64,000 nucleotides of DNA from Thiomicrorhabdus arctica DSM 13458. Its GTDB lineage: Bacteria; Pseudomonadota; Gammaproteobacteria; Thiomicrospirales; Thiomicrospiraceae. The DNA lies in contig NZ_KB905899.1 of NCBI RefSeq assembly GCF_000381085.1, forward strand, positions 682,001 through 746,000, given 5' to 3'. The position numbers and the translations under genes are program-made. Positions 12,741 through 55,468 of the stretch are shown piece after piece. Below the pieces are notes generated by a model. The model ran no database searches. It was not told the origin of the DNA and saw nothing but the letters and a program-made list of their open reading frames with translations. The stretch's first letter is position 1; each line of letters opens with the position of its first letter.

Positions 12741-13714
12741 GCTAACTTTACCCGAGGATCAAACAGCGTATAAGAGATGTCCGTGAGAATCAGGCCGATA
12801 ATATATAAAACCGAGCCTAAAAACACCATGGCTTTCACGATGCCAAAATCTTGGGCATTAATCGCATCCAGCGTATAACTGCCCAGGCCTGGTATACCAA
12901 AGAAGGATTCCATAATCAGACTGCCCATAAAGAGCGTCGGAATAACGACCACTACACCCGTTAGAATCGGTAGCATACCATTTTGGAGCACATGACCAAA
13001 TAGGACTTTGAGATCAGATAAGCCTTTGGCACGGGCCGTACGAATATAGTCCTTATTCATCTCTTCTAAAAAAATACTTCGATACCAACGCATGCCTGCA
13101 CCAATACCAGAAAACACCCCGATAAAAATCGGTAAGATCAAAAACTTAAACCCCTCCCAGCCTTCTGTATATCCCGAAATGGGTACCCAATGCCAAACCT
13201 TACTGAACAAGACTTGTCCGGCAATGATATAAAACAGGCCTGAGATAGACATAATCGCGACCGCCACCATCATGGTGGCAGTATCTAAGGCCGAACCTCT
13301 GAATAAAACAATCAGCAACGCCAAAGCGATATTAGTGACTAAACCAATGACAAACGTCGGTAAGGCAATGGCTAGGCTTGGCCACATACGTTCATAAACA
13401 TCCGCCGTAATTTGTCTACCTGAATCAGACTGACCAAAATCAAAGACAAACAACTTCATGGATTCTTGCACAAACAGGGTATCTTGCACTTTGGCCAGCC
13501 CTGGTGCATCTGCATTAAAAAATAGTGGCTTATCGTAGCCGTGATCTACTTTCCACGACTGTATCATTTCGGGCGTGGTTTGCTTAGCCCCTAATTGGGC
13601 ACGTGCCATGTCTTCTGGCGTATTCACCATGAAAAACAGTGCAAACGTGATAAAGTTAACTCCAATCAAAATCGGCAGTGCGAACAGCACTCTTCTCATA
13701 ATGTAAGCAAACAT
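12737..13714 (-). CDS. yejB: Peptide ABC importer permease (YejB/OppB-like)
   Basis: Inner-membrane permease subunit pairing with the YejE-like protein. The 325 residues contain six hydrophobic segments and begin with MFAYIMRRVLFALPILIGVN, the standard N-terminus of OppB-type permeases. The ATPase-contacting motif is near 224-246 (DYIRTARAKGLSDLKVLFGHVLQN), and the late ESFFGIPGLGSYTLDAI motif is near 270-286. The gene abuts the stop codon of the binding-protein gene with no spacing and overlaps the next permease by 4 bp. The IPGLGS codons include one copy of the CCAGGCCTGG palindrome. Confidence 0.93.
   Translation of the reverse strand: MFAYIMRRVLFALPILIGVNFITFALFFMVNTPEDMARAQLGAKQTTPEMIQSWKVDHGYDKPLFFNADAPGLAKVQDTLFVQESMKLFVFDFGQSDSGRQITADVYERMWPSLAIALPTFVIGLVTNIALALLIVLFRGSALDTATMMVAVAIMSISGLFYIIAGQVLFSKVWHWVPISGYTEGWEGFKFLILPIFIGVFSGIGAGMRWYRSIFLEEMNKDYIRTARAKGLSDLKVLFGHVLQNGMLPILTGVVVVIPTLFMGSLIMESFFGIPGLGSYTLDAINAQDFGIVKAMVFLGSVLYIIGLILTDISYTLFDPRVKLA
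12883..12892. repeat. CCAGGCCTGG palindrome copy, in yejB
   Basis: Exact inner 10-mer, with C instead of A at the left outer position. It is read on the minus strand as the codons for PGL in IPGLGS. Confidence 0.85.
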
Positions 13715-16030
13715 CTAGGTGTTCTCACTTTGCGTGTTTTTTGCGCTTATCTTAATAATGGCGGCCTGGCGGCGACGATAAGCCAAATGTAAAGGATAGA
13801 TACTGCCAATGATAATCGTAAACACGATTATCATTGGCCAAATAACAGGTTGATTCCATGCGGTTTGTTTTAAGATACGCTCTTTCGCGTCAATACGTCT
13901 ATATTTAACAGTATTATTTGCTAAAGGGTTGGGCCAAACATTGTGCAACCAATGGTGATACAGCGCCAACGATTTTGGATGATACCCCCATATCCAAGGG
14001 GCATCTTTTTGCAATAACAGAGTCATTTCCTCAATAATCGCTAGCCGTTTGGGCCCATTTTTCATAGTCTTCATTTTTAAGAAAAGCTTGTTGAATTTTG
14101 GATTATCGTAATTGGCGCTATTAATTCCGGAACCATTGGTATTGATAATTGCATTGCCTCCATAGAGTAAAAACAGAAAATTCTCAGGGTCGGGATAATC
14201 GGCATTCCAGCCCCAAGAAAACATCTGTACTTTAGCACCCCGTACTTTGTCTTGAAAGCGATTGTAGTCCGTTGCGCGAATCACCAGTTCGATACCAAGC
14301 TTAGCAAACTGTTTACGATACCAGTTCAACATCGATTGACTGTCTGGCCCTGTGGCGGCCGTATCATAATGTAAGGTTAAAGGTGATCCATCTGGCATAC
14401 GTCCATTGGGATATCCCGCTTCAGTTAGCAGTTGTTTAGCGACCTCTATAGACTTACGTTGTAAGCGATCATCTCTCCAATCGAACACAACACTATTGCG
14501 GCCAGCTTGACCTGATTGATAACCAAAAATACCAGGTGGTATCGGACTTTGTGCTGTGACACCTCGACCATTGAGAAAGATCGATATATACTCTTCAAAA
14601 TTAACCGCAATGCTCAATGCCTGACGCAACTTACGCTGTTTCTTAGAGTAACCACCTACCACAGGGTCTACCATATTAAAGCCAAAATAGAGAATACTGG
14701 GCTGAATCATATTTAAAAACTGAATGCCTTTTTTCTGCATTTCTGGCGTGAGGCGCATAGAGCCCGAATTGGAAACTGAGACGGCTTGATCGAAACTATC
14801 AGAACTGACACCTGAAGCATCGTAATAACCCTGCAAAAACTTATTCCATAAAGGTACGCTTTCTTTTTCAAGCGAATAAACCACTTCTTTAATAAAAGGT
14901 AACCGCTTGCCTGCATCATTCAATAGAGCAGAATCTGCACCTTCTGCTAAGCCATCGACCGGATAGGTTTCTAGATGATAGTTCGGGTTAGCGAGTAAAC
15001 GCATGCGTTTATTGGGATTATTCTCAACCAGTTGATAAGGTCCCGTACCAACGGGTGAGGTATCCAGAGTTAAGTTTTTTTCGACCAGGCCTGGTTGTTT
15101 ATAAAAAGCTTCGGCCTCCCATGGAATCGGCGCAAAGAAGTTCATACTTAACCAATATAAGAACTGCGGATACACTCCTTTTATTTTTATTTTATAATGA
15201 TATTTATCAATAACTTGAACACCACTAATATCAAACTTATTTAAGTTGAAGAAATGGGTTTTGGTGGTTTTATCATTAACGGAAAGTTCTATTTGATAAG
15301 CGTTAGAAACCGTCTCAGAAAAGAGTGTAAGGCCTTCAATATAGCGCGCCATAGAATCAAATATTGGTGAGTGATTTTGCCTTAAAGCCATGCGTTTCAG
15401 TGCATAAACATAATCTGCTGCGATGAGTTCTCGAGTGTCTTTTTGTTTAAAGTCACGCAATGTTTCAATCTTGGATAACGCCTCTGAATCCAGATGATGA
15501 TATTTAAACTGTCCAAGCTGATCTTTAACAAATGCCGGGTGGGGTTGAAATTGTATGCCAGGCTTAAGCGTAAAGAGATACTCAGTAAAAGCAATTTTTG
15601 GATACGCTTCTGCTACGATTTTCCCTTTGGCATCAAAATACGTGGTTTCAGGCATCTTAGCGAGGGTTAAAGGCTCTAAAGTATAAGGGCGTTTCAAATA
15701 ATGGTACTGGAGAGGTGGTTCGTACACTTGGCTTAAAATCGCCCACTCGTTAGAGTTATAAGACACCACTGGATCTAAATGTTTAGGCGACTCGCTAAAG
15801 GAGCTAAACAGCGTTTGAGAACGCGTTTGATCAGCACTATAAGGGGTATTCCAGGCCGATGCAGAGCAACTTGAGGCATAAACAACCATGGCCAAAATTC
15901 TGTACCAAGGACGACAGAGGTCAGTGACCTGATTTAGGAATGGTTTCTTAAATAACAAAGGTAGATTCACTATACGTTTACACACGCTAAAAGAAGATAA
16001 AAGTATTGGTAGACAAAGATACACTCTCAT
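13715..16030 (-). CDS. Extracellular solute-binding protein of the peptide importer, with C-terminal membrane anchor
   Basis: Peptide-binding receptor (SBP_bac_5 family) feeding the YejB/E/F transporter. At 771 residues it is longer than typical OppA or YejA (about 540-610). Family features are LDPVVSYNSNEWAILSQVYE near 82-101, TSPVGTGPYQLVENNPNKRM near 324-343 and NYDNPKFNKLFLKM in the last third. Unusually, residues about 725-748 (VIWPMIIVFTIIIGSIYPLH) form a hydrophobic helix followed by a basic RRRQ segment, which would tether the protein to the inner membrane instead of leaving it free. The annotated ATG lacks a clear ribosome site and gives an N-terminus with two hydrophobic stretches. 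The true start may be internal, since the segment ending in SCSASA (about 58) looks like the real signal peptide. Confidence 0.88.
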   Translation of the reverse strand: MRVYLCLPILLSSFSVCKRIVNLPLLFKKPFLNQVTDLCRPWYRILAMVVYASSCSASAWNTPYSADQTRSQTLFSSFSESPKHLDPVVSYNSNEWAILSQVYEPPLQYHYLKRPYTLEPLTLAKMPETTYFDAKGKIVAEAYPKIAFTEYLFTLKPGIQFQPHPAFVKDQLGQFKYHHLDSEALSKIETLRDFKQKDTRELIAADYVYALKRMALRQNHSPIFDSMARYIEGLTLFSETVSNAYQIELSVNDKTTKTHFFNLNKFDISGVQVIDKYHYKIKIKGVYPQFLYWLSMNFFAPIPWEAEAFYKQPGLVEKNLTLDTSPVGTGPYQLVENNPNKRMRLLANPNYHLETYPVDGLAEGADSALLNDAGKRLPFIKEVVYSLEKESVPLWNKFLQGYYDASGVSSDSFDQAVSVSNSGSMRLTPEMQKKGIQFLNMIQPSILYFGFNMVDPVVGGYSKKQRKLRQALSIAVNFEEYISIFLNGRGVTAQSPIPPGIFGYQSGQAGRNSVVFDWRDDRLQRKSIEVAKQLLTEAGYPNGRMPDGSPLTLHYDTAATGPDSQSMLNWYRKQFAKLGIELVIRATDYNRFQDKVRGAKVQMFSWGWNADYPDPENFLFLLYGGNAIINTNGSGINSANYDNPKFNKLFLKMKTMKNGPKRLAIIEEMTLLLQKDAPWIWGYHPKSLALYHHWLHNVWPNPLANNTVKYRRIDAKERILKQTAWNQPVIWPMIIVFTIIIGSIYPLHLAYRRRQAAIIKISAKNTQSENT
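15084..15095. repeat. ACCAGGCCTGGT palindrome copy, in the binding-protein gene
   Basis: Exact 12-mer, read on the minus strand as the PGLV of QPGLVEKN. Confidence 0.9.
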
Positions 16031-16175
16031 CTAAATAATCTAAACGGATTTTATCAATTACAGCCATTATAACTGCCTGTTTAGCGTTATAATGCTCATA
16101 AAATTTAATACTCATCATACGTGATTTTAAACTAAATTGACGTAATTATAAGACTCAATAAGATTGGAGAACAAC

Positions 16176-16955: not shown

Positions 16956-16970
16956 ACGCCATCACTCTTC

Positions 16971-16995
16971 ACTCAAGCCCTAATTGGGCCTGAGT
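16971..16995 (+). terminator. Hairpin after fabI, possible weak terminator
   Basis: ACTCA-GCCC, loop taatt, GGGC-TGAGT: nine or ten base pairs with one mismatch, 16 bp after the stop codon. There is no T-tract, so it may be an RNA 3' end stabiliser instead of a true terminator. Confidence 0.4.
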
Positions 16996-17177
16996 TCCAC
17001 CACCTCTTCTATACTCGGATTTCTTATCCTTCCCCAAAAAAAACCTCATTACCTTTACACGCCTTTTTTGTTATATTCAAAACTCTACTATAAAAAACAA
17101 CTACCGTAAGTTTATTACTGTGTCCAGTTGAGACGCATAAGCACCACACTCTGGGTGGCGAAAAACAAAGGTGAATC

Positions 17178-19851: not shown

Positions 19852-19889
19852 AAAAGGCGACATACAGAATTAACTCTATGTCGCCTTTG
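19852..19889 (-). terminator. Intrinsic terminator of the tRNA operon
   Basis: AAAGGCGACATA and TATGTCGCCTTT form a 12-bp stem, followed by further T on the minus strand, 5 bp after the CCA end of tRNA-Asp. Confidence 0.85.
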
Positions 19890-19893
19890 AATA

Positions 19894-27313: not shown

Positions 27314-29236
27314 CTACTTTGTGAGCTCAGCCTCTACGATTTCTTTTTCAACTTCTAACCGTTCCTGCAGTTCTAACCACTCCATCTCACACTCTTCGAT
27401 TGCGCCTTCACACTCTGCCTGAGATTGAATGCACTCCGCTAATTTAGTTTTATTTTCAGCTTCATATAAGCGACTATCTTCCATTAACGTATGATATTCA
27501 GACTGTTTGGCCTGCAACGACTCTAACTGACGTTCTATTTTCTTAACGGCTTGAGTAATTGGTTTAAGGCGCGCATCCACCTTTTTTCTCTGTGTTGCAT
27601 TGATTTGACGCGCCTGTTTTTTCGTTTGACCAGGCCTGGTCTCTTTAGATTCAAGATCAACTTGCTTCAACTGTTTAAGGCGCGCTTGAAGATAGGTGTC
27701 TAAATCCCCTACAAAACGTGAAACCTCACCATTATGTACCCACCAAAACTGATCTGCAATGCTGGTCAATAAATGCTTATCATGTGTGACAACAATTAAG
27801 GCTCCCGTAAAATCTTGTAGCGCCATATCTAATGCATCACGAGTTTCCATATCCAAATGGTTAGTCGGCTCATCCAAAATAATCAAATTGGGTTTTTGAA
27901 AAACAATCATCGCCAGTGCTAAACGCGCTTTTTCGCCACCTGAAAAATGATTAATGGAGTCCAAGCATTGTGTATTTGAAAACCCAAAACCTCCTAAGAA
28001 ATTACGCGCCTCTTGGTCCGTAGGGGCCTCTGGTAACATTAATAAATGTTGCAATGGACTCTTATCCAAAATGAGCGATTCAAGTTGGTGTTGAGCAAAA
28101 TAGCCAAACTTAACCCCCTTGTTGATTTGAACTTTACCACTGCTGGGTTTTAAATCACCGACAAGCAATTTAATCAAGGTTGATTTACCCGAGCCATTAA
28201 CCCCCACCAATCCAATACGATCCCCCGCACGTAATACCAACTTAACAGAGTCTAAAATCGGTTTTTGTGGGTATGAAAAACTGGCCGAATCCAATGACAA
28301 CATGGGATCAGGCTGATGCAAAGGTGGAATGAATTCAAAATGAAAAGGGTTGGTTGCCTGCACCGCCGCAATAGACTCCATTCTCTCCAATGCTTTTACA
28401 CGGCTCTGCGCCTGCTTGGCTTTGGATGCCTTAGCTTTGAATCGTTCAATAAAGCTTTTCAGATGTTGCATCTGTTGTTTTTGTTTATCATGTAGAGATT
28501 GCTGTTGCATCAACTGTTCATTTCGCTGGCGCTCGAAGGAGGCAAAGTTACCAGAATAGAACGTGATTTTTTGATCATGGATATGAGCGATACCTTGCAC
28601 CGCTTGATCCAGAAAATCACGGTCATGGGAAATAATTAAAATCGCGCCTTGGTAGGATTTAAGCCACTGTTCTAACCAAGCAACCGCTTCAATATCCAAG
28701 TGATTGGTCGGCTCATCCAGTAACAATAAATCGGAACGCTGCATTAATGCTCGGCCTAATTTAAGGCGAACTTGCCAACCACCTGAAAACTGGGCCATGG
28801 GTTTCGTAAAATCGCTCTCTACAAACCCTAAACCATACAATAACTGCTTGGCTTTGCTCGGTATTGCAAACCCATCCATTTTATCCAAAGCATCATAAGC
28901 CTTCACCAATAAATCATGATCATTCGAGGCTTCCGCTTTCTCAATCAACTCTTGCGCTTCAGCGTATTTGGTATCGCCAAAGGTGACATAACGCAGTGCT
29001 TGAGCATCCGGACGACGTACTTCCTGCTCAACATAACCAATCAGCCAATTAGCCGGAATACCAATGTTTCCCGCCTCGATTGAGACTTCACCTAACAGAC
29101 ATTTAAACAACGTCGTTTTACCCACCCCATTTTGACCGACCAAACCAATTTTTTGTCCAGGATGAATATTAAGATTTGCGCCATCGAAAAGAGGCTTAAC
29201 ACCTGCACGAATCGATAAATTTTGTAGACATAACAT
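27314..29236 (-). CDS. yheS: ABC-F family ATPase (YheS-like)
   Basis: Soluble ribosome-associated ATPase of the ABC-F class, with no membrane domain. The 640 residues hold two ABC domains: Walker A GQNGVGKT near 33-40 and GVNGSGKS near 347, signatures FSGGWQVRL and FSGGEKARL, and Walker B LLLLDEPTNHLD and LIILDEPTNHLD. The interdomain linker (about 235-300) is highly charged and rich in K/Q. A C-terminal coiled-coil (about 540-635) follows a basic segment containing TRPGQTKKQARQ. YheS is chosen over Uup or EttA by length and C-terminal extension. The actual translation substrate is unknown. One palindrome copy lies in the TRPGQT codons. Confidence 0.92.
   Translation of the reverse strand: MLCLQNLSIRAGVKPLFDGANLNIHPGQKIGLVGQNGVGKTTLFKCLLGEVSIEAGNIGIPANWLIGYVEQEVRRPDAQALRYVTFGDTKYAEAQELIEKAEASNDHDLLVKAYDALDKMDGFAIPSKAKQLLYGLGFVESDFTKPMAQFSGGWQVRLKLGRALMQRSDLLLLDEPTNHLDIEAVAWLEQWLKSYQGAILIISHDRDFLDQAVQGIAHIHDQKITFYSGNFASFERQRNEQLMQQQSLHDKQKQQMQHLKSFIERFKAKASKAKQAQSRVKALERMESIAAVQATNPFHFEFIPPLHQPDPMLSLDSASFSYPQKPILDSVKLVLRAGDRIGLVGVNGSGKSTLIKLLVGDLKPSSGKVQINKGVKFGYFAQHQLESLILDKSPLQHLLMLPEAPTDQEARNFLGGFGFSNTQCLDSINHFSGGEKARLALAMIVFQKPNLIILDEPTNHLDMETRDALDMALQDFTGALIVVTHDKHLLTSIADQFWWVHNGEVSRFVGDLDTYLQARLKQLKQVDLESKETRPGQTKKQARQINATQRKKVDARLKPITQAVKKIERQLESLQAKQSEYHTLMEDSRLYEAENKTKLAECIQSQAECEGAIEECEMEWLELQERLEVEKEIVEAELTK
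27629..27640. repeat. ACCAGGCCTGGT palindrome copy, in yheS
   Basis: Exact 12-mer, extended to 14 as GACCAGGCCTGGTC. It is read on the minus strand in a different frame from most copies, encoding T-R-P-G. Confidence 0.9.
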
Positions 29237-33467: not shown

Positions 33468-34201
33468 GTTTATTCCTTTTAATCTTCAATCAGCGAAAGA
33501 AATGCTTCATTCGGTTGTAAAAGCATGAAATAACGCTTAATTGTCCTGATGGGAAAAAATAATGCCTACTGTGATAATGGACCCTACATCTGTTAATTAA
33601 CAATTAAATGTTTCAATACTTTATTAGTATTTTTAATAACAACCCAAGTATACTTTAAGCATTGGTCCTCTCTATTTTGGATAGATAGGAATATGGCGGA
33701 CACGCCTAGTAAGATAAAAAGGTCCAGATGAATAATAACGTGAGGACAATTGGTATCACATTGGTTGTTAAAACTTCTGCGACCGCCTCAGACTGAAATA
33801 GACCACGAGCCGGCTCTCTCTATAATGTGCTCAGAATATGAACTCAATTACATATAAAGACTCAATGCCAATTACACTTATCTAAACTTAAAGAAACCTA
33901 TCAACGACGTCACTGTCAAACTCACCAAGCCAAACGCATGATGAACCCATTTAAGTCAGACAACCAAAGATTAAATCAGTCAAAACCAACCCAGAGAGTG
34001 CGAGCAAGCTTGATAGTGCCCGGCCAAAGAATAAAATTGACTTATTGTGCGCCATAATTTAAATCTCGCTATACGCCCAGTTTGCATTCATGCTTAATTC
34101 TAGTGAGACACAAATCACTTCTCTGCTAATAATTAATCATTTTAGGATGCCAGTAGTTTAAAATATTGCGCATTCAATATGACAAAGCATCCCCAGGTAT
34201 T
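33468..34201. other. 734-bp gap between sqr and mfd
   Basis: No intact gene. The part next to sqr (33468-33660) is very AT-rich with several short palindromic T/A tracts and must hold the sqr promoter. The middle (33706-34055) shows remnants of hydrophobic reading frames on the minus strand, listed separately. The right end holds the presumed mfd promoter. No tRNA or terminator hairpin with a T-tract was seen. Confidence 0.5.
33706..34055 (-). pseudogene. Possible decayed small membrane-protein gene(s)
   Basis: From ATG 34055 the minus strand encodes MAHNKSILFFGRALSSLLAL and a further 14 hydrophobic residues before a stop at 33951. A second frame continues with KWVHHAFGLVSLTVTSLIGF until a stop near 33879, as if one frameshift had split a roughly 58-residue two-helix protein. 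Farther on, an open stretch without a start codon (33819-33706) encodes VIPIVLTLLFIWTFLSY. These could also be chance hydrophobic translations of AT-rich DNA. No family was recognised. Confidence 0.3.
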
Positions 34202-37200
34202 ATGAAAAAACTGCAGCCGCCTTTAGCCACTCATGACATTTCTCTTAAAGGGAATCGTTCCTACTGGGGGCCATTAAATACCTCAGAAAGTGCATTAGTC
34301 ATTGCGAACACCTACCAGAGTTCACCAGGCCTGGTGGTTGTCTTAACGCAGGACAGCCAGTCTGCAAATCAATTGCAAGAATCTTTACAGTTTTTCTTAA
34401 ATCACCCTGATTCGAATCAAGATGATATTCATGCCTTTCCTGAATGGGAGACATTGCCCTACGATCAGTTTTCACCGCATCAAGATATTGTTTCGGAACG
34501 TTTAAAAACGCTCTATCGCTTGCCACAACTTCAGCAAGGGATTCTGATATTACCCATCTCGACCCTTATTCAAAAGATCGTGCCACACGAATACATTAGT
34601 CAATTTACCTTTTTATTGGCCTGCGGTGATACGCTAGAAATAGAACCCTTTACGCTTAAATTAGAAGCCAGTAGTTATCAACGCGTTAGTCAAGTGATGG
34701 AACATGGTGAATTTGCCATACGCGGTTCAATCATTGACCTATTTCCCATGGGCAGTAAGACCCCTTTTCGCATTGATCTATTTGATGATGAAGTTGAAAC
34801 CATCCGTAGCTTTGATCCAGAGAACCAACGCTCGATTGAACAAGTCGATAAGATTCAGCTACTACCTGCTAAAGAGTTTAACTTTACTCAGCAAGGAATT
34901 GATTTATTTAGACTAAAGTTCCGTGAACGATTTGGCGACAGTGCAAGAAATTCCCAAATATATAAAGACGTTTCAGATGGCCAAGCGGTGGGAGGATTAG
35001 AATATTACCTCCCTCTTTTCCATGAAACCTTAACCAATTTATTCGATTATCTACCGGATGACACGCGATTTTTCGAGTTTGGAAACTTAGAAACAGGTAT
35101 CGATAAAATTCATAATGAATACGAGGAACGTTACCAAGTTGGCCAACATAATCCGGATTTTCCTCTGCTTAAGCCCCAAGAAATCATCCTAGATAAAACC
35201 GATTTTTTAACCTTATTAAAACGCTATCATCGTATTAGTTTACAGTCAGACATATCGACCAAAAATACCACTCAATTTGCCACTAAAACCCTACCTGAAT
35301 TGGATGTGCAATCCCAAAGCGAATACCCACTTGCCAAACTGAATGCCTTTTTAGACCATTATCAAGGTAAAGTGATATTCAGTGCTGAGAGTACTGGGCG
35401 CAGAGAAACCCTGATCACGCTACTGGCTAAGCATAAACAATTCCCGTTGATTGTTGATCAATGGTCGGATGCATTAACCACCCAAAAATCACAATGCATT
35501 TTAGTGAGTCCGCTCGAAGAATCGATTTATACCGAACACTACTGCATTATTTCCGAAACACAGATTTTTGGACAAACGGTAGTGCAAAAACGCCGTCGCA
35601 AAAAGAAACATGATGACTTCAATAGCGCAATCAGTAATCTTATTGAACTCGACATCGGTAGCCCAATTGTGCATATCGACCATGGCGTTGGGCGTTATCG
35701 CGGTTTAGAAATTCTCGAAATTCATGATGAAGCCAAAGAGTTTCTAATGATTGAGTACGCCGGAGAAGCCAAACTCTATGTACCGGTCACCTCTTTGCAC
35801 CTCATCAGTCGCTATACGGGTGCAACCCCGGAAACCGCGCCTCTGCATCGACTGGGCAGTGATCGCTGGGAAAAAGCCAAGCGTAAAGCCGCTGAAAAAG
35901 TCCATGATGTGGCTGCAGAACTGCTGGATATCTATGCACAAAGAGCGGCCAAGCCCGGTTACGCCTTTAAAACTCCTGTTGAAGCCTATCAACGTTTTGC
36001 CTCAAGCTTTCCTTTTGAAGAAACCCCTGATCAACAGCAAGCCATTGAAGCCGTCATCGCCGACATGCACTCGGACAAACCGATGGATCGCCTGATCTGT
36101 GGTGATGTGGGCTTTGGTAAAACCGAAGTGGCGATGCGGGCGGCCTTTATCGCCGCCTATGATGGCAAGCAAGTGGCTATTTTAGTGCCGACCACTCTAC
36201 TCGCCCAACAACACCTTGAAAACTTTCGAAACCGATTCTCAGATTGGCCTGTCAAAATCGAAGTGTTATCGCGCTTTCAAACCGCTAAAGAGCAAAAAAT
36301 CGTTTTAGAAGATTTGAAAGCCGGTAAGGTCGATATTATTATTGGCACCCATAAATTAATCCAAAAAGATGTCGCTTATCAAGAACTTGGTCTGATTATT
36401 ATTGATGAAGAGCACCGTTTTGGTGTTAGACAAAAAGAACAACTTAAAAAAATGCGGGCCGAAGTCGATGTCATGACCATGACCGCGACCCCTATTCCGC
36501 GTACTTTAAATATGGCGATGAATGACTTACGTGATTTATCCATTATTGCCACACCACCGGCCAAGCGTTTAGCCGTGCAGACCTTTGTACAGGAGTGGAA
36601 CGAGGATGTCGTGCGCGAAGCTTCTTTACGTGAAATCCGTCGTGGTGGACAGGTTTATATCCTCTATAACCAAGTTGATAAAATTGAGCAGATGGTCGAG
36701 ACCATTCAAGAACTCATCCCAGAAGCGAAAGTTACTTTTGCACACGGCCAAATGAATGAACGTGATCTTGAATCGGTGATGGAGGACTTCTATCACCGCC
36801 GCTACAATATTTTAGTCTGTACCACCATTATTGAAACAGGCATTGATATCCCGACTGCGAATACTATTCTGATTAATCGAGCCGATAAGTTTGGCTTGGC
36901 GCAATTGCATCAATTACGCGGTCGTGTCGGCCGCTCACATCACCGTGCTTACGCTTATCTATTTACCGGTGGTAAATCGACTATCTCTAAAGATGCCGAG
37001 AAACGCCTGGCCGCGATTGCCAAACACAATACCTTAGGGGCCGGGTTTATCCTTGCCAGCCACGATTTAGAAATCCGTGGCGCTGGCGAATTATTGGGTG
37101 ACGGCCAATCAGGTCAAATACAAGAGATTGGTTTTGGTCTGTACAGTGAACTACTGGAACGTGCTGTTAAAGCCTTGAAATCCGGCAAACACCCAGAACT

Positions 37201-37657
37201 CAATACAACCTTGCATACCGGCAGTGAAGTCGATTTGAGTGTTCCAGCACTGATTCCCGAAGACTACCTACCAGATGTCCATACGCGATTGGTTTTCTAT
37301 AAACGCATTGCCAGTGCGGATGATAAAACCAGTTTAAGAGAGCTTGAGGTAGAGATGATCGATCGCTTCGGTTTACTGCCCGACCAGGTTAAAAACCTAC
37401 TGGTGGTCACGCAGATTAAATTATTGATTGAGCCAATGGGCATCATTAAACTCGATGCCTCGGATTCGATGGTTCGCTTACAGTTTAATCAACAGCCAGA
37501 CATTGATCCCATGAAACTTATTAAGCTCATTCAAGGTCAACCTAAGCAATATCAATTAAAAGGCCAAACGGAATTGAAATTTTTCGATACAATGCCTGAA
37601 TTATCTCAAAGAATCGCCGCGATTGAACTGATGGTGAGAAGTATTAAAATAGGTTAG
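34202..37657 (+). CDS. mfd: Mfd, transcription-repair coupling factor
   Basis: DNA translocase that dislodges stalled RNA polymerase and recruits UvrA to lesions. The chain is 1151 residues from ATG 34202, close to the normal length. The N-terminal UvrB-like region (about 1-330), the RNA polymerase-interaction domain with SPIVHIDHGVGRYRGLEIL near 487-505, the translocase module with Walker A CGDVGFGKTE near 635 and IIDEEHRFGV, RecG-like TATPIPRTLNM, and the C-terminal UvrA-masking domain are all in order. An upstream in-frame TTG (34166) is less likely because AGG precedes the ATG and Mfd proteins start near this point. csiV follows on the same strand. One palindrome copy lies near the 5' end, within SPGLVV. 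Confidence 0.97.
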   Translation: MKKLQPPLATHDISLKGNRSYWGPLNTSESALVIANTYQSSPGLVVVLTQDSQSANQLQESLQFFLNHPDSNQDDIHAFPEWETLPYDQFSPHQDIVSERLKTLYRLPQLQQGILILPISTLIQKIVPHEYISQFTFLLACGDTLEIEPFTLKLEASSYQRVSQVMEHGEFAIRGSIIDLFPMGSKTPFRIDLFDDEVETIRSFDPENQRSIEQVDKIQLLPAKEFNFTQQGIDLFRLKFRERFGDSARNSQIYKDVSDGQAVGGLEYYLPLFHETLTNLFDYLPDDTRFFEFGNLETGIDKIHNEYEERYQVGQHNPDFPLLKPQEIILDKTDFLTLLKRYHRISLQSDISTKNTTQFATKTLPELDVQSQSEYPLAKLNAFLDHYQGKVIFSAESTGRRETLITLLAKHKQFPLIVDQWSDALTTQKSQCILVSPLEESIYTEHYCIISETQIFGQTVVQKRRRKKKHDDFNSAISNLIELDIGSPIVHIDHGVGRYRGLEILEIHDEAKEFLMIEYAGEAKLYVPVTSLHLISRYTGATPETAPLHRLGSDRWEKAKRKAAEKVHDVAAELLDIYAQRAAKPGYAFKTPVEAYQRFASSFPFEETPDQQQAIEAVIADMHSDKPMDRLICGDVGFGKTEVAMRAAFIAAYDGKQVAILVPTTLLAQQHLENFRNRFSDWPVKIEVLSRFQTAKEQKIVLEDLKAGKVDIIIGTHKLIQKDVAYQELGLIIIDEEHRFGVRQKEQLKKMRAEVDVMTMTATPIPRTLNMAMNDLRDLSIIATPPAKRLAVQTFVQEWNEDVVREASLREIRRGGQVYILYNQVDKIEQMVETIQELIPEAKVTFAHGQMNERDLESVMEDFYHRRYNILVCTTIIETGIDIPTANTILINRADKFGLAQLHQLRGRVGRSHHRAYAYLFTGGKSTISKDAEKRLAAIAKHNTLGAGFILASHDLEIRGAGELLGDGQSGQIQEIGFGLYSELLERAVKALKSGKHPELNTTLHTGSEVDLSVPALIPEDYLPDVHTRLVFYKRIASADDKTSLRELEVEMIDRFGLLPDQVKNLLVVTQIKLLIEPMGIIKLDASDSMVRLQFNQQPDIDPMKLIKLIQGQPKQYQLKGQTELKFFDTMPELSQRIAAIELMVRSIKIG
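34324..34335. repeat. ACCAGGCCTGGT palindrome copy, in mfd
   Basis: Exact 12-mer, extended to 14 as CACCAGGCCTGGTG, encoding PGLV of SSPGLVVVL on the plus strand. Confidence 0.9.
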
Positions 37658-39182: not shown

Positions 39183-39212
39183 TTTAAAACGACCAGGCCT
39201 GGTCGTTTTAAA
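39183..39212. repeat. Perfect 30-bp palindrome carrying ACCAGGCCTGGT between hemJ and the GlcG-like gene
   Basis: TTTAAAACG, ACCAGGCCTGGT and CGTTTTAAA read identically on both strands. It is the only perfect intergenic copy. In RNA it would fold into a GC-rich stem flanked by A and T tracts, so it may double as a bidirectional terminator about 50 bp after the hemJ stop codon. Confidence 0.92.
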
Positions 39213-41931: not shown

Positions 41932-42621
41932 TTAAAAGTGATCCCAAGGACTTTCCCAACGGGTTATCAATTGCTTACTCGCGGGCTTGAGAAAAACCTC
42001 GCCAGCTTGCGGTGCCTGTAAAAATTGATAGACCTGATCATAAAGCGTGAATTGTATCGCAAAAGCATGTAAGTATCCCCTATCCGCCAACTTAGCCTCA
42101 TGGGCGTCACTGTAACGAACATCTCCGAGGATAGGTGCACTAATACTTTTTAGGGCGACTCTTATTTGATGGGTTTTACCCGTCATTGGTTTCACCAAAT
42201 AAAGTCGTAAACCCGGTTCTATCGACTGACTGATAAACTGGGTTTTGGCTGGGCTCACTTTAGAGTTACTCAGCTTCCAGTTACCTCGGCGTGCCGGTAA
42301 CATGTCGCCGATCACCCAGCCTTGTTTCTTTTTCGGTTTTTTGTCAGAGACGGCTAAATAAAACTTCTGAACAAGATGTTGTTCAAACATCACCTGAAAA
42401 GCTTGCGCCGTTTTTTTATTCAAGGCAAAAATAACTAAACCGGAGGTCATTTTATCCAAACGATGCACGGGATATAACTCCTCGACGTCTAAATCCTGCT
42501 TAACCAAAACAACCAGGCCTGGTGAGTCTTCGGAATGGAAATTTAAACCTGCCGGTTTACTCACCACCACAAAATCTGTATTTTGAAAGACCACTTCACT
42601 GTTTAATGAACTCTCTTTCAC
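41932..42621 (-). CDS. RluA family pseudouridine synthase
   Basis: RNA-modifying enzyme converting uridine to pseudouridine, cytoplasmic. The 229 residues contain VVVSKPAGLNFHSED near 18-32, the catalytic motif HRLDKMTSGL at 53-62 with nucleophile D56, and the late PMTGKTHQIRVALKSISAPILGD. No S4 domain is present, so it is of the short RluA/TruC-like type. The exact RNA target cannot be told from sequence. Its ATG overlaps the stop of the AlkC-like gene by 4 bp, so the two are co-translated. A palindrome copy encodes PGLV at residues 34-37. Confidence 0.88.
   Translation of the reverse strand: MKESSLNSEVVFQNTDFVVVSKPAGLNFHSEDSPGLVVLVKQDLDVEELYPVHRLDKMTSGLVIFALNKKTAQAFQVMFEQHLVQKFYLAVSDKKPKKKQGWVIGDMLPARRGNWKLSNSKVSPAKTQFISQSIEPGLRLYLVKPMTGKTHQIRVALKSISAPILGDVRYSDAHEAKLADRGYLHAFAIQFTLYDQVYQFLQAPQAGEVFLKPASKQLITRWESPWDHF
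42512..42523. repeat. ACCAGGCCTGGT palindrome copy, in the pseudouridine synthase gene
   Basis: Exact 12-mer, read on the minus strand as the PGLV of DSPGLVVLV. Confidence 0.9.
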
Positions 42622-44660: not shown

Positions 44661-45836
44661 ATGCAAAAACACACCTTGGACATTAAGGTTCACAGTCAAA
44701 TATCTGAAATTTCTGCAACAGATTGGAATGCTTTATTAAAGGATGACAACCCTTTTATACGCCATGAATTTCTTCACGCTTTAGAACAACATCAATGCGT
44801 CTCTGCCAAGTTTGGCTGGATTCCAAAGCATCTCGGGATGTATGAAAATGGCTCCTTGATTGCTGCCATGCCACTGTATGAAAAACACAACAATTATGGT
44901 GAATTTGTATTTGACCAGGCCTGGTCAAATGCTTGGCAACAAGTGGGGTTGGAGTATTATCCAAAGTTAGTATCAGCCGCCCCCTACACCCCCGCTTTAG
45001 GAGATCGTTTATTGATCTCTAGCGACTTGGATAAACCTAGACAAGCCTTGATTCAAGGCCAACTTATCGAAGCCGTACAAGAGCTGTGTTTCGAACAGGC
45101 GTTTAGTGGCGCCCATATTTTATTTCCCAATAAAGCCCAACAGACCTGGTTAGTAGAACAACCTGAGTGGCTGCATCGGCATGACTGCCAGTTCCATTGG
45201 TTTAATCAAAACTACCAAAACTTCGATGATTTCTTAGCCACTCTAAGTGCCAAAAAGCGTAAAAATATCAAACAAGAACGTAAATCCGTTTTAAACGCGG
45301 GCATTACTTTTAGAGTACTTAATGGTCACACTGCAACCGAACAGGATTGGCAACAGCTTGCAATCTTCTATCAAAAAACCTTTATTGAAAAGTGGAGTAC
45401 ACCCACCTTAAATATCGATTTCTTTAAGGCTGTTGCCCAAGCATTGCCTACCCAAATTGTTTTAGTCTTAGCAGACCTAAACCACCAGTGTATTGCAGGT
45501 TCTTTAATGTTCCGTTCAGAAACCCATCTGTATGGTCGTCACTGGGGTTGTCTTCAAGAGGTTAAGAACTTGCATTTTGAAGCCTGCTTCTATCAAGGCA
45601 TTGAGTATGCGATTGAAAATGGTTTGCAGGTATTTGAACCGGGTGCGGGAGGCGAACATAAGATTGCCCGAGGATTTGTGCCGGTCAACATGCAATCGTC
45701 GCACTGGCTAAGAGTCAATCCATTTCCAGAAGGCATTGAACGTTTTATCTTGGAAGAAAAGCAGGCGGTTGAAGAGTATGCGGCAGACTGTTTAAAACAC
45801 GCCCCCTACAAAGAGATAGACTGCTTTTATGAGTAG
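44661..45836 (+). CDS. GNAT/FemAB-like acyltransferase family protein (DUF482)
   Basis: A 391-residue cytoplasmic protein of the DUF482/COG3146 family, related in fold to N-acyltransferases and FemAB peptidyl transferases; no substrate is established. Family marks are NPFIRHEFLHALEQ near 30-43, PKLVSAAPYTPALGDRLL near 105-122, the basic helix SAKKRKNIKQERKSV near 195-209 and the late HWGCLQEVKNLHFEACFYQG followed by FEPGAGGEHKIARGF near 332-346. It seems a single gene. A palindrome copy lies in the codons for FDQAWSN. Confidence 0.87.
   Translation: MQKHTLDIKVHSQISEISATDWNALLKDDNPFIRHEFLHALEQHQCVSAKFGWIPKHLGMYENGSLIAAMPLYEKHNNYGEFVFDQAWSNAWQQVGLEYYPKLVSAAPYTPALGDRLLISSDLDKPRQALIQGQLIEAVQELCFEQAFSGAHILFPNKAQQTWLVEQPEWLHRHDCQFHWFNQNYQNFDDFLATLSAKKRKNIKQERKSVLNAGITFRVLNGHTATEQDWQQLAIFYQKTFIEKWSTPTLNIDFFKAVAQALPTQIVLVLADLNHQCIAGSLMFRSETHLYGRHWGCLQEVKNLHFEACFYQGIEYAIENGLQVFEPGAGGEHKIARGFVPVNMQSSHWLRVNPFPEGIERFILEEKQAVEEYAADCLKHAPYKEIDCFYE
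44909..44930. repeat. 22-bp perfect palindrome containing ACCAGGCCTGGT, in the DUF482 gene
   Basis: ATTTG, ACCAGGCCTGGT, CAAAT read the same on both strands. It is in coding sequence (D-Q-A-W-S frame) and has the longest perfect arms of any coding copy. Confidence 0.9.
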
Positions 45837-48278: not shown

Positions 48279-48285
48279 CGCCAAT

Positions 48286-50629
<2,344 letters not shown>

Positions 50630-50705
50630 GTTCCCTCCGCTGGTACTAACCAGTTCAGGTTCTACGGATCCCGCTTTCGCGATCTCAGCCTAAAGGCACT
50701 CCGAC
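50630..50705 (-). promoter_or_regulatory. TPP (THI-element) riboswitch aptamer
   Basis: On the minus strand the conserved pieces occur in order: GGAGTGCC near the 5' side, GGCTGAGATC (the CUGAGA core), a variable hairpin GCGAAAGC, AGAACCTGAACTGG (the ACCTGA core), TTAGTACCAGCG and GGAGGGAAC. This is the full THI-box, upstream of thiC, so TPP is expected to shut the operon off. Confidence 0.95.
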
Positions 50706-50719
50706 AAAATTTGAATTCA

Positions 50720-50747
50720 AGTATACCCCAAAAATTTGCAAATACAA
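50720..50747 (-). promoter_or_regulatory. Candidate promoter of the thi operon
   Basis: Minus-strand TTGTAT (50747-50742), a 16-nt spacer and TATACT (50725-50720). Transcription would begin near 50712, just before the aptamer. Confidence 0.6.
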
Positions 50748-50925
50748 GCGCAATAGCCTCTCGCCATAACTCACAATACCCTAGCAAACTGGTACAATGA
50801 CCCGTTCATTAAATGGCTACTTCTGTCCGATAGATAGACCGGCCAGACGGTACCCGTCAGAATGGGTAACGAATTTAATGATGAACTCCAACCCAAATCA
50901 CCCAAGAAAATCGCAGAGAAAATTC

Positions 50926-51447
50926 ATGTTTAAAATAGAGACCATTGATCCTAAAGTTTATAGAAAAAAAACCCGTAACGCCACGCTGATTATCATGTTC
51001 ATGTTTATAATCATCGGCTTTGGAACGGCCCATTTGGCCGTAACGACCTTAGGCGAATATTCAAACAACAAACTGATATTGAACCTATTGGGGGCGTTTG
51101 TTGGATTAATGATTACCGGTTTAATCGTCAAAACCTGGTTTGCGGATAAGGATTGGATGAAAGAATCGATGTATTCATGGCGCTTAAAAAGAAACTTGAT
51201 GCACGTTACGAATGTCCTGCAAAAAGTCAAAGATCAAGTTGATGAAAATGATGCTCACTCCCTAAAAATTCTACGCTTTTATCATTTGGGGCTGGAACAG
51301 ATGCATCAACTTGAAGACAATAACCATGCTCTGATTGATTTGGGGGCTGAAAAACGTGCATTAGAAGTCAAAATGACGGAGCTAGGACAAGACCTAAATC
51401 AAACTGAGTTTGATCCGCAGTGGATCCAAAGATACAAAGCGGATTAA
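50926..51447 (+). CDS. DUF3087 family membrane protein
   Basis: A 173-residue protein of the DUF3087 family, function unknown. It opens MFKIETIDPKVYRKKTRNA, then two hydrophobic segments (about 20-40 and 48-68), followed by a soluble, helix-rich C-terminal domain with YSWRLKRNLMHVTNVLQKV near 86-104 and the closing ALEVKMTELGQDLNQTEFDP. ATG 50926 is used because family members begin MFK; longer starts at 50797 or 50881 would add an unconserved lead that overlaps the thi promoter region. It converges with hrpA. Confidence 0.82.
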   Translation: MFKIETIDPKVYRKKTRNATLIIMFMFIIIGFGTAHLAVTTLGEYSNNKLILNLLGAFVGLMITGLIVKTWFADKDWMKESMYSWRLKRNLMHVTNVLQKVKDQVDENDAHSLKILRFYHLGLEQMHQLEDNNHALIDLGAEKRALEVKMTELGQDLNQTEFDPQWIQRYKAD

Positions 51448-51487
51448 GCTCAACAAAACAGACTGGTTGAGATGCCTTAAAGTGCGA

Positions 51488-54400
51488 CTACAGTGCTTTA
51501 ATCCTCTTTTCGATACGGGGTACCGAAATCGGCATTAGGGTTTTCATCGGCTGTGCAAACAGTGACAACCTTAACTCCTCAATCAACCACCGGATTTCGA
51601 CCAGGCCTGGTAGGTCTTGATAAGCGGATTCTTGTGCCAAAGCTTGATAAGCCTTTAATACCGGTTGAATCTGCCGAATCGACAATTGATCTTTACTCGG
51701 GTCTTGCTCTATCTTCTCCAAACGCACCTCCAAGCCTTTCAAGTAACGGCTGATTTGCTTGAACCACTCTTCTGGCGTATTCCGGACAAAATCTTTGGAG
51801 ATTAGAGCATCTAACTGTTGTTGAATATCCGTTATAGAAGCCAACCAACGTGGATTAACACGCCCTCTTACCCGCTTGGCAATGACCTGATGTTGGATAA
51901 AAATCGCATTGACCTGCACGGCAACCGCTTGCGCAGACTCAATCCAATGCAGACGTACGTTTTCCAATGTGGCTTTATAATCCGCTTGACGACGTACTGT
52001 TTCAGGATATGGCACTAACTGCTGTAACGCACGATCAATCACCTGTTGGGTTAAGTCCTGACAAGTTCCGTAAGGTGCATAACATAAGCAAGCCTTTTGC
52101 AAAGGTAGCTTCTTTTGCAGATACCTGAGTTTATCGGCCAATTCCGTGCGAATCAAAAACAACACGGCTTCAGCATGCGCTTCTAAGGCCTCCACTTCAT
52201 CCCCCATTAACTCCAAGCTAAGCTTCTCGTCCTGATACTGTAAAGCGGGATAAGCCACCATTTCGACGCCATGGCTTTTAATGGTTTGTGAAGACTCCAA
52301 ATCGCCAAAATTCCATTCGGTAACAAGCGTACTGCTCTGTTTTTTGCGAGATTGATGTTGCTGGATTTTGGCATCGACCAAATGTTGATACTGAGATTTT
52401 AAGTGGCTAAGACTGGCATCTTCTGCAATCACCTTGCCTTTGTCATCTTCTAAAACAAAAAATGGTAACAGGTGATCTGGTAACGCAATTGCTTCAAAAT
52501 CTGAATCAGACACTTTGAGATTACCACGGCGATTGAGTGCCCAAATCAATTGATTGAGATAAGACTCTTTACGGCCACTTTTAACGGTTTTTTCAGGCGA
52601 CATTTCAGACAAAACTAACGCTGCATAATGCGGAGCAGGTATAAACTGCTTTCTAAGTTGTTTCGGTAATGCTTTGATATAAAAAGAAGTCTTTTCTTTT
52701 AAAAGACCTGGAGTTAGCCATTCAAAATCACTTTCTTGGAGTAAATTCAGACTCGACAAAGGAACATGATAAATCAAACCATCACGCTTTTTACCCGGTT
52801 CAAAATGGTAATCCACCGCAAAATTCAATTGATTAGAAAGCTGTATTTGATCCGGATACTCTTTAAGGAAATCGGCATTAGTTTCCTGTTTCATCAAGTC
52901 ATTTTCAGTTAAGAAAAGTGCCTCTAATTTCTCAGGAGCCTCTCGCAAAGATTTCTTAACCCACTTGTCTAACGCCGGCTGGCTGAAGATATGTTTAGGA
53001 ATACGCTCATCATAGAATTGATAAAGCACCTCATCATCTACCAGAAAATCCGGACGACGCAATTTGTGCTCAAGCTTCTCTATTTTCTCAATCAAGGCTT
53101 GGTTATGCTTAAAAAAGGCCGCACGCGTTAATAACTCGCCCTCCACCAAACCATGACGAATGAAAAGCTTATGGGATTCAACCGGATTAATAGGGCCGTA
53201 ATTACAGTGACGTCGATTGACGATCGGTAAACCGTACAGCGTAATGGATTCATAGGCACCCACTTGGCCGTTTTTCTTTTGCCAATGCGGATCAGTGTAG
53301 TTATGTTTTATTAAATGCTTGGCAAGGCTTTCTATCCATTGGATATCGATGGCGGCATTGTTGCGCGCGTAGAGTTTTGTAGTTTCGACCAACTCGCCTG
53401 CCAACAACCACTTTGGTTTACGCTTATAAAGACTGGAACTAGGATGGATAAACAGTTTGGTATTACGTGCACCGATATAAGACTTATCATCGTCACGCAA
53501 TGCCACATTACCCAGTAGACCGGCCAATAAGGATTTATGTACAGCTACACTGTGCAAATCGCTAAGGCGTTCTCTGACGACATTGCCTTCTGTGACCTCT
53601 TCAAACAGGTGTAATTGGCCTACGCGCAACCCGATACGCTTAAGACTCTGCTCAATCTGCATCGTTAGCTCATGCCACTCTTTCATCCGCATATAAGAGA
53701 GAAAGTTGGTTTTGCATAATTTGCGTAATTTATTTTCTGAAAGGTGGCGGCGTTGATGTTCATAAAACTGCCATAGATTTAAAAAGAATAAGAAATCAGA
53801 ACGCTCATCTTCAAAGGGTTTATGGGCAACTCTTGCGGCCTGCATGGTAGTTTGATTGATATCACGTGGATCTTGAATACTTAATGCTGAAGCGATGACG
53901 ATCAACTCCGCCAATACACCATTTTTATCTGCTTCAACCACCATTTTGGCGACACTAGGATCGACTGGTAGTTTGGCGATCTGGCGGCCTTCTGCCGTTA
54001 AGCGGCGTTGATCATCCAAAGCCCCTAACTCATGTAACTGACGATAACCATCATTCACCGATTTATCCGATGGTGCCTCAATAAAGGGAAACTGCTTCAC
54101 ATCACCTAAAGACAATTGCGCCATCGTTAGAATGACGGATGATAACGAGGTACGATGAATTTCAGGGTCGGTAAACTCGGGACGTGAGTTAAAACTGGCT
54201 TCATCGTATAGGCGAATACAAATCCCGGCACTGACACGTCCACAACGACCTTTACGTTGATTAGCAGAGGCTTGCGATATTTTCTCAATTGGCAAACGTT
54301 GTACCTTGTTACGCACACTGTAGCGACTGATTCTCACCAGGCCTGGGTCAACCACATATTTAATACCCGGCACGGTTAACGACGTTTCGGCCACATTCGT

Positions 54401-55468
54401 ACTGAGAATAATGCGTCGTTTTTGTGAGGTTTTAAAGATCTTTTGTTGTTCGGTCATCGACAAACGTGCATACAGAGGTATTACTTCGGTATTTTTTAGA
54501 TTACGTTTACGCAGTACCTCGGCGGTTTCTTTAATATCACGCTCACCCACTTGAAACACCAATACGTCACCAAATGGATCTTCTAGCGCCAACTCGTCAA
54601 TTGCATCTGCAATACCGGTGGTCATGTCCTGCTCAATCTCATTGCCTGCATCGTCTTCATAAGATGACAGTGGGCGATAACGTAATTCAACGGGATAGGT
54701 ACGTCCTGAGACTTCAACCACGGGTGGACGCTTACCATTCAACGTAAAGTGGTCGGCAAATCGCTGGGTGTCAATGGTTGCCGAGGTGATAATGACCTTG
54801 AAATCAGGGCGTTTCAATAATAGCTGTTTAAGAATACCCAATAAGAAATCAATATTGATGCTGCGCTCATGCGCTTCATCGATAATAATGGTGTCATATT
54901 GCAAAAGCATTTGATCATTCTGAATTTCAGCCAGTAGAATCCCATCGGTCATGACTTTAATCAAACTGTGCGTTTTGACTAAATCTAAAAAACGCACCTG
55001 ATAACCGACGATATCCCCAAGTTGCCCCCCTAACTCTTCGGCAATACGTTCGGAAACGCTACGCGCTGCCAATCGTCTTGGCTGCGTACAACCGATCCTG
55101 CCACGTACACCTAATCCAGCTTCTAAACAAATTTTAGGAATCTGTGTGGTTTTACCTGATCCAGTCTCTCCCGCGATTACCACCACCTGGTGGTCGCGAA
55201 TAAGTTTGACCAGTTCCTCTTTTTTAGCGGCCACCGGTAAAGAATCATCGTATTCAATCTTAGGCACACTATTACGGCGTTTCTCGACCTGTTGGATAGA
55301 AGATTGAACTTGGTTCGCCCAGTTTAACCAGGCCTGGTCAGTTTCCTTGAGCGTCTTCAGGTCCAACCTGTTTAATGCATTTTGCAGGCGCGAGCGATCT
55401 TTAATCAGGCAGCTATCCAACAGGTTGGATAACTCATTTTTTTGAACAGTAAAGGAAACTTCAGACAT
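51488..55468 (-). CDS. hrpA: HrpA, ATP-dependent DEAH-box RNA helicase
   Basis: Large DEAH helicase linked to RNA processing and ribosome rescue. At 1326 residues it is close to E. coli HrpA. Walker A GETGSGKT is at 100-107 and DEAH at 197-200 in TIIIDEAHERSIN. SATID, the helicase C-terminal motif QRKGRCGRVSAGICIRLY, the HA2/OB domains, and the long HrpA-specific C-terminal part (DUF3418) follow. Its region near residue 375 reads VDPGLVRISRYS. Three palindrome copies (51600, 54337, 55327) lie within this gene, the most in any gene here. It is a single gene convergent with DUF3087. Confidence 0.96.
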   Translation of the reverse strand: MSEVSFTVQKNELSNLLDSCLIKDRSRLQNALNRLDLKTLKETDQAWLNWANQVQSSIQQVEKRRNSVPKIEYDDSLPVAAKKEELVKLIRDHQVVVIAGETGSGKTTQIPKICLEAGLGVRGRIGCTQPRRLAARSVSERIAEELGGQLGDIVGYQVRFLDLVKTHSLIKVMTDGILLAEIQNDQMLLQYDTIIIDEAHERSINIDFLLGILKQLLLKRPDFKVIITSATIDTQRFADHFTLNGKRPPVVEVSGRTYPVELRYRPLSSYEDDAGNEIEQDMTTGIADAIDELALEDPFGDVLVFQVGERDIKETAEVLRKRNLKNTEVIPLYARLSMTEQQKIFKTSQKRRIILSTNVAETSLTVPGIKYVVDPGLVRISRYSVRNKVQRLPIEKISQASANQRKGRCGRVSAGICIRLYDEASFNSRPEFTDPEIHRTSLSSVILTMAQLSLGDVKQFPFIEAPSDKSVNDGYRQLHELGALDDQRRLTAEGRQIAKLPVDPSVAKMVVEADKNGVLAELIVIASALSIQDPRDINQTTMQAARVAHKPFEDERSDFLFFLNLWQFYEHQRRHLSENKLRKLCKTNFLSYMRMKEWHELTMQIEQSLKRIGLRVGQLHLFEEVTEGNVVRERLSDLHSVAVHKSLLAGLLGNVALRDDDKSYIGARNTKLFIHPSSSLYKRKPKWLLAGELVETTKLYARNNAAIDIQWIESLAKHLIKHNYTDPHWQKKNGQVGAYESITLYGLPIVNRRHCNYGPINPVESHKLFIRHGLVEGELLTRAAFFKHNQALIEKIEKLEHKLRRPDFLVDDEVLYQFYDERIPKHIFSQPALDKWVKKSLREAPEKLEALFLTENDLMKQETNADFLKEYPDQIQLSNQLNFAVDYHFEPGKKRDGLIYHVPLSSLNLLQESDFEWLTPGLLKEKTSFYIKALPKQLRKQFIPAPHYAALVLSEMSPEKTVKSGRKESYLNQLIWALNRRGNLKVSDSDFEAIALPDHLLPFFVLEDDKGKVIAEDASLSHLKSQYQHLVDAKIQQHQSRKKQSSTLVTEWNFGDLESSQTIKSHGVEMVAYPALQYQDEKLSLELMGDEVEALEAHAEAVLFLIRTELADKLRYLQKKLPLQKACLCYAPYGTCQDLTQQVIDRALQQLVPYPETVRRQADYKATLENVRLHWIESAQAVAVQVNAIFIQHQVIAKRVRGRVNPRWLASITDIQQQLDALISKDFVRNTPEEWFKQISRYLKGLEVRLEKIEQDPSKDQLSIRQIQPVLKAYQALAQESAYQDLPGLVEIRWLIEELRLSLFAQPMKTLMPISVPRIEKRIKAL
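51600..51611. repeat. ACCAGGCCTGGT palindrome copy, 3' part of hrpA
   Basis: Exact 12-mer, read as PGLV in DLPGLVEIR on the minus strand. Confidence 0.9.
54337..54346. repeat. CCAGGCCTGG palindrome copy, in hrpA
   Basis: Exact 10-mer with A at the left and G instead of T at the right outer position. It is read as P-G-L in VDPGLVRIS. Confidence 0.85.
55327..55338. repeat. ACCAGGCCTGGT palindrome copy, 5' part of hrpA
   Basis: Exact 12-mer, read in the D-Q-A-W-L frame on the minus strand. Confidence 0.9.

Follow-up and report, generated by a model that had tools for sequence, protein, structure and literature searches.

A dispersed palindromic repeat of Thiomicrorhabdus arctica as a putative uptake signal sequence of the Thiomicrospira-Hydrogenovibrio-Thiomicrorhabdus family

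We analysed a 64-kb stretch of the genome of Thiomicrorhabdus arctica DSM 13458 (contig NZ_KB905899.1, positions 682,001 to 746,000), hereafter the window, for copies of the palindromic 12-mer ACCAGGCCTGGT. Eight exact copies were found, all at the positions given by an earlier note on this DNA. One of them is intergenic (39192..39203) and forms a two-sided element, atttaaaacg ACCAGGCCTGGT cgttttaaaa. The others lie within open reading frames (ORFs): at 15084..15095 (ORF 13715-16030, frame P-G-L), 27629..27640 (ORF 27314-29236, frame R-P-G), 34324..34335 (ORF 34166-37657, frame P-G-L, mfd-like by eye from its translation), 42512..42523 (ORF 41932-42621, frame P-G-L), 44914..44925 (ORF 44661-45836, frame Q-A-W) and, in ORF 51488-55468, whose translation is hrpA-like by eye, at 51600..51611 and 55327..55338 (the latter in frame Q-A-W). 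The two copies of an inner sequence previously placed near 12883 and 54337 correspond to one-mismatch 12-mers that hold CCAGGCCTGG, namely CCCAGGCCTGGT at 12882..12893 (ORF 12737-13714, frame P-G-L) and ACCAGGCCTGGG at 54336..54347 (hrpA). The degenerate copy noted at 6738 is likewise a one-mismatch copy, ACCAGGCCTGTT (6738..6749), which is intergenic with A- and T-rich tracts in its flanks (atttaaaatg / cgttttaaat). One site had been missed: AACAGGCCTGAG at 13233..13244, again within ORF 12737-13714, where only the core CAGGCCTG is intact. The nine coding copies and their frames (six P-G-L, two Q-A-W, one R-P-G) are as the earlier note had them, but they are found in seven proteins rather than eight, hrpA holding three. 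When up to 2 mismatches to the 12-mer were allowed, the window presented 15 matches; over 100 dinucleotide shuffles the average was 1.31 and the maximum 4.

Uptake-type sequences are characterised by dispersed copies that number hundreds to thousands, in large excess over expectation, and such abundance was observed here: the complete set for T. arctica (genome G000) is 333 exact 12-mers in 2.55 Mb, with 0 for the reversed-pattern control. The earlier note had suggested a comparison with a Markov model. In a sample of 464 kb from G000 (20 stretches of 20 kb plus the window), 57 exact 12-mers were found versus 0.03 expected under a second-order model. The 12-mer occurs at least once in 23/32 genomes of the genus (range 0 to 718) and in 41/62 genomes of the family, whose members are sulfur-oxidising, marine, free-living bacteria; searching the whole order returned the same 62 genomes. 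The core CAGGCCTG divides these 62 genomes cleanly: 32 carry between 236 and 1173 copies, the other 30 between 0 and 74. Core-rich genomes make up 15/32 of Thiomicrorhabdus and 7/11, 9/9 and 1/1 of three other genera. Outside the family, in a search confined to Gammaproteobacteria (369 genomes, 4 of them family members), the 12-mer did not exceed 5 copies in any of the remaining 365. The family-wide signal is real.

The copies are spread evenly. The dispersion index of core counts per 20 kb was 0.66 (G000) and 1.12 (G001), short gaps were near the Poisson expectation, and no regional clustering was seen when 20 stretches from contig 1 of G000 and 20 from G001 were examined for it. The apparent clustering at 34-55 kb of the window and the empty interval at 15.1-27.6 kb, to which the earlier note had drawn attention, therefore look ordinary given spacing near Poisson. 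With genes defined as open frames of at least 70 codons chosen by a simple script, G000 has 30 exact copies between genes, 26 within them and 1 straddling a boundary, in DNA that is 87.8% coding; for G001 the numbers are 41, 67 and 2, respectively. Of the core sites of G000, 15 lie in convergent gaps versus 6.6 expected and 3 in divergent gaps versus 9.9 expected; for G001 the values are 16 versus 7.3 and 2 versus 10.0, respectively. G006 and G003 lean the same way, the deficit in divergent gaps not being significant. Copies in the host genome are thus enriched between genes and avoid divergent (promoter) gaps.

The element extends beyond the 12-mer. From the centre outward, the consensus of each half reads GG-A-C-C-A-purine-pyrimidine-T-A-A-A. 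The full element of G000 and G001 is AAATTGACCAGGCCTGGTCAATTT, and the dialect of the window can be written AAA-TYRA-CCAGGCCTGG-TYRA-TTT, two-sided and palindromic. Copies with a single mismatch to the 12-mer mostly differ from it at one of the two outer positions (21/29 in G000 and 36/41 in G001). AT-rich segments spaced roughly one helical turn away, a trait specific to the uptake signal sequence (USS), were found in nine genomes, G000, G001 (weaker), G003, G006, G061, G002, G038, G039 and G044, as A-tracts at about that distance from the centre of the element. The signal peaks in intergenic sites and is weaker in coding ones, where the fraction of A at 10-12 bp was 0.42-0.51 in G000, 0.32-0.40 in G001 and 0.47-0.58 in G006. 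Coding sites thus present both the A-tracts and the pyrimidine-purine step, more weakly and least in G001.

Relatives spell the element in clade-specific dialects, with at least six spellings that range from palindromic to one-sided. Another palindromic spelling, ACCGGCCGGT, is present in 1025 copies in G006, and its A-tracts are as far from the centre as those of the CAGGCCTG element. One-sided, non-palindromic spellings include AAAACTCAACAGGCCGGGT (G002) and AAAATCTGCCAGGYTGGG, some of them arranged as close inverted pairs (2 in G002, 1 in G038, 4 in G039 and G044 together, and 3 in locus L112 of T. cannonii). Dialects of core-poor genomes were sought as k-mers spread over many 1.5-kb bins. 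This yielded the word CAGGCCGGG in G002 (22 sites in 80 kb; consensus AAAACTCAACAGGCCGGGTA), CCAGGCTGGG in G038 (14 sites in 69.5 kb; one-sided consensus AAAATCTGCCAGGCTGGG) and CCAGGTTGGG in G044 and G039 (13 sites in 80 kb of G044, 10 sites in 69.5 kb of G039; one-sided consensus AAAATCTGCCAGGTTGGG). In the one-sided dialects, the A-tract stands upstream, four bases ahead of (A/C)CAGG, which is the spacing of the palindrome. We also considered sites with a single intact GGT arm in the chilensis group, defined as the G003 stretches and loci L110 and L117 (L115 belongs to the same genome as G003 and was left out). Of 14 such sites, 11 had the A-tract opposite the intact arm, 1 had it on the arm's own side and 2 were tied, an orientation identical to that of G002. 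Because the A-tract lies opposite the intact arm in 11/14 sites, the chilensis dialect is also one-sided, around a palindromic core.

Core-poor genomes of the genus had been candidates for loss of the element. This is wrong at least for G002 and G006, and G038, G039 and G044 also present another spelling. No comparable motif was found in samples of 40 to 100 kb each from G009, G010, G030, G031, G004, G020, G023 and G048, where a rare one would be missed, and a 40-kb control sample from G000 itself gave no clear signal in the same hunt. The higher scores of G031 and G023 reflect local repeats. As a separate observation, 10-base words recur about 97 and 34 times in the G031 and G039 samples, respectively, always within a few 2-kb bins; these clustered repeats may be CRISPR or tandem arrays.

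Perfect copies outnumber copies with one mismatch in 9/10 sampled genomes, as counted with the 10- to 12-mer of each genome's own dialect. The perfect and one-mismatch counts were 57/29 in G000, 110/41 in G001, 16/3 in G037 and 14/3 in G056, and they were equal (8/8) in G061. They were 89/15 in G006, 16/8 in G002, 14/1 in G038, 13/6 in G044 and 10/3 in G039, five genomes whose dialect words came from the same samples, which favours the perfect counts. With the 8-mer core alone, the chilensis group gave 49/48. An excess of perfect over singly mismatched sites is described, in the relevant passages of Redfield et al. 2006 (PMC1626085), as a puzzling mark of uptake sequences that sets them apart from regulator sites; the same passages describe USS with AT-rich segments about one helical turn apart and with subclade dialects. 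These marks are found in the Thiomicrospira-family repeat, with the genome exceptions that are listed here.

Conservation of sites was followed in hrpA, for which 31/32 genomes of the genus gave a match and 30 loci were aligned by codon (G011 and G016 are not among them). The core occupies the same columns as in the window in 10/30 genes for the site at 51600, in 8/30 for 54336 and in 12/30 for 55327, the window's own gene included in each case. The earlier note had proposed following copies at orthologous positions in relatives, and in this gene they persist. At 54336..54347 the codons are CCA GGC CTG, and genomes that lack the site encode P-G-L or P-G-Q with other codons. All three sites are kept in seven genomes with the palindromic dialect. 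Across these, a single codon is used throughout in 8/8 motif codon columns whose amino acid is shared, versus 77/781 columns elsewhere. This count omits G014 (gene in pieces and without the third region) and G015 (one of the three sites), and its choice of material favours the result, since it considers columns taken from the window's own sites, in the seven genomes that kept them. The hrpA tree requires 4 changes between core-rich and core-poor genomes. Identical hrpA rows were found for G003 and T. chilensis, for G002 and T. cannonii, and for G014 and Thiomicrorhabdus sp. NP51, a near sister of the window's genome.

We consider it probable that the repeat is an uptake signal of the USS or DNA uptake sequence (DUS) type, belonging to the Thiomicrospira-Hydrogenovibrio-Thiomicrorhabdus family, of which ACCAGGCCTGGT would be the two-sided palindromic dialect. 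Among the roles listed by the earlier note, that of an uptake sequence is the one that the evidence favours. In such a system, a surface receptor of the DNA-uptake pilus would prefer DNA that bears the element, and the A-tracts would help to bend or melt this DNA for entry. Repeated uptake and recombination of DNA from relatives would then lead to the high copy number and the strict consensus, and changes of the receptor would give rise to dialects. Our proposal is that the element works like a USS or DUS rather than that its membership is proven, because a non-palindromic motif, a trait of that class, is presented by the one-sided relatives and not by the dialect of the window.

Several of our results weigh against this interpretation. 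Described USS and DUS are non-palindromic, whereas the window's dialect is a palindrome; non-palindromy is nevertheless a property of the known examples and not a necessity of the mechanism. Density is lower than the approximately 1 per kb quoted for USS and DUS: the core is found at 192-450 per Mb in six sampled CAGGCCTG genomes, and the 12-mer at 100-350 per Mb in five of these six and at 0 in the G003 sample. In G037 and G056, both the A-tracts and the intergenic excess are weak or absent. One-sidedness was looked for in full palindromes and not seen, the two A-tracts there being independent of each other. Outside the chilensis group, the one-arm test was flat in G000 (8 versus 7) and gave 27 versus 14 in G001 (p 0.06) and 2 versus 1 in two further loci. 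The full 17-mer extended USS of Haemophilus and Actinobacillus matched our matrices no better than shuffles did. Finally, among the matches listed by full-text searches for the motif strings, and for uptake sequence or competence combined with the names of the genera, none described such a sequence for the Thiomicrospira family (the coverage excludes most subscription papers as well as bioRxiv preprints). Among the matches listed, the literature on overrepresented motifs held nothing on this family, the 12-mer string itself did not appear, and the main text of PMC5217627 makes no mention of Thiomicro- or CAGGCC.

The uptake machinery gave a mixed result. ComEC, from which alone the presence of this machinery was judged, exceeds the cut-off in 27/27 high-quality genomes with CAGGCCTG or ACCGGCCGGT (counted by hand). 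It is also present, unsplit, in 16/23 high-quality genomes without palindromic cores, which again counts against an uptake role; 4 of these 23 carry a dialect, G038, G039 and G044 with an intact ComEC and G002 with a split one. The association has a Fisher p of 0.002, or 0.04 when divergent g2 proteins are taken as intact, and ignores kinship. ComEC presence was rejected as a discriminator, as most genomes without the palindromic core have it too: DNA-uptake machinery is present in carriers but is not discriminating. As to receptors, PF07963 matches were found in 14 genomes (8 with CAGGCCTG, G006 and 5 others), from which 20 stretches were chosen and clustered. No pilin that tracks the motif was found in these stretches, the same pilin families occurring with and without the core, and neither a receptor among their pilins nor one of the ComP type was identified; these negatives belong with the points above. 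Among the matches listed, a four-gene pilin cluster is present in 9/14 genomes, likewise with and without the core. Three further observations were made on these genes. In contig C1 of G002, ComEC matches in two pieces on one strand, 50689-51309 and 88072-89325, about 37 kb apart, as if interrupted. G030, a 99% complete genome of the genus, has no ComEC match over the cut-off. At L230 7061-8161, a HATPase_c-domain protein is encoded, flanked on one side by minor pilin-like genes and on the other by a conserved pilin-like one; relatives were found in the chosen stretches of 10/14 genomes.

Alternatively, the element may be an intracellular site for a dimeric protein that shapes or partitions the chromosome (of the MatP, Noc or SlmA kind), with dialects following changes of the protein. 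Dyad symmetry, A-tract flanks and conserved positions suit such a site, yet we saw no regional bias across the sampled stretches (20 from G000 contig 1 and 20 from G001), and the consensus is stricter than is usual for regulator sites, an argument taken from part of PMC1626085. Moreover, sister lineages present non-palindromic, one-sided forms, and therefore a symmetric dimer is not expected to read their dialects. The nucleoid or segregation role raised by the earlier note gained no positive evidence, and we regard a site of this kind as unlikely. A by-product similar to the highly iterated palindrome HIP1 was also considered, in which a methylase reads the core (GGCC, AGGCCT or CCWGG) and biased mismatch repair piles up copies; a methylation-linked repair origin was proposed by Elhai for cyanobacterial HIP1 (PMC4390886, in part). 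This would fit a GC-rich, highly iterated palindrome with an alternate palindrome in one relative. However, PF00145 was unmatched in 7/15 core-rich genomes of the genus and PF01555 in 19/32 core-rich genomes of the family, and neither was found in six core-rich genomes of the genus (the window's included) or in G006, adenine families such as PF02086 not having been searched. The A-tracts lie 10-12 bp out, beyond a methylase site, and non-palindromic dialects exist. The 5-methylcytosine (PF00145, 32 genus genomes) and N4/N6 methylases (PF01555, 62 genomes) were accordingly rejected as the cause, being absent from many carriers. Carriers that match neither of these two families, A-tract flanks and non-palindromic dialects thus leave the methylation-linked and HIP1-like roles of the earlier note disfavoured, and we hold such an origin to be very improbable.

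The preference for convergent gaps might instead indicate that the copies are mainly transcription terminators; 17/23 co-oriented G000 sites are near upstream stops and a TTTT run is close by in 21/41 intergenic G000 sites. Terminators need no fixed sequence, however, and 26/57 exact copies in G000 and 67/110 in G001 lie inside genes. These coding copies contradict termination as a full explanation, which is almost certainly not the right one. It may be a secondary use of some sites, as reported for USS pairs of H. influenzae in parts of PMC5217627.

With regard to known systems, the closest parallels to the proposed uptake signal are found in the USS of Pasteurellaceae (Hin AAGTGCGGT, Apl ACAAGCGGT): a short strict core, more perfect than singly mismatched copies, subclade dialects, inverted pairs and AT-rich segments about a helical turn away. 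The USS differs in its core and in its higher density, and the window's dialect is a palindrome flanked by a tract on each side. The run GGTCAATTT occurs both in the extended Hin USS AAAGTGCGGTCAATTTT, as given in an excerpt of PMC12616744, and in the consensus of G000 and G001 (right half). This run was noticed after the fact. Among 4000 shuffles, 4 (G000) and 8 (G001) reached it, and among 4000 block shuffles 8 and 11, respectively; no notable run was found for the Apl form or for the G003 and G006 consensus. We treat the half-site resemblance as a lead. The DUS of Neisseriaceae also occur as dispersed copies in hundreds or more, with dialects that follow phylogeny (PMC3630211, in part), but they are not palindromic and, according to part of PMC1626085, have no flanking motifs. 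Cyanobacterial HIP1 (GCGATCGC) and the alternate HIPs are highly iterated palindromes with alternates in some relatives (PMC4390886, in part). In contrast to these, neither of the methylase families searched here is common to carriers, and our element has AT-rich flanks and one-sided dialects.

Neisseria and Pasteurellaceae are mostly animal-associated. The need for short uptake sequences was called unique to these two groups in 2013, in the portion of PMC3630211 that treats it. If the proposed uptake function is true, a third, free-living family has an uptake signal, in six or more spellings, some palindromic and others one-sided. These would form a natural series for finding the receptor by coevolution, an approach already applied to Pasteurellaceae (PMC12616744), and for learning how a genome rewrites hundreds of sites upon receptor change. 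The element could also help to mark recent foreign DNA in these genomes. It is conceivable, if doubtful, that uptake-signal recognition is older and more plastic than has been assumed, such that the family element and the Pasteurellaceae USS would derive from one gammaproteobacterial system (A-tract, four-base spacer, CC-rich core) whose site has become, in some lineages, a palindrome readable from either side.

Two minor observations were made in a clade of the genus in which we found no dialect. Runs of at least 7 G (AGGGGGGG) are scattered through loci L254, L255, L105, L113 and L120. In addition, a leader and start sequence recurs in L254 (G023) in five near-identical forms over about 7.5 kb (3022-10451), apparently from a repeated gene.

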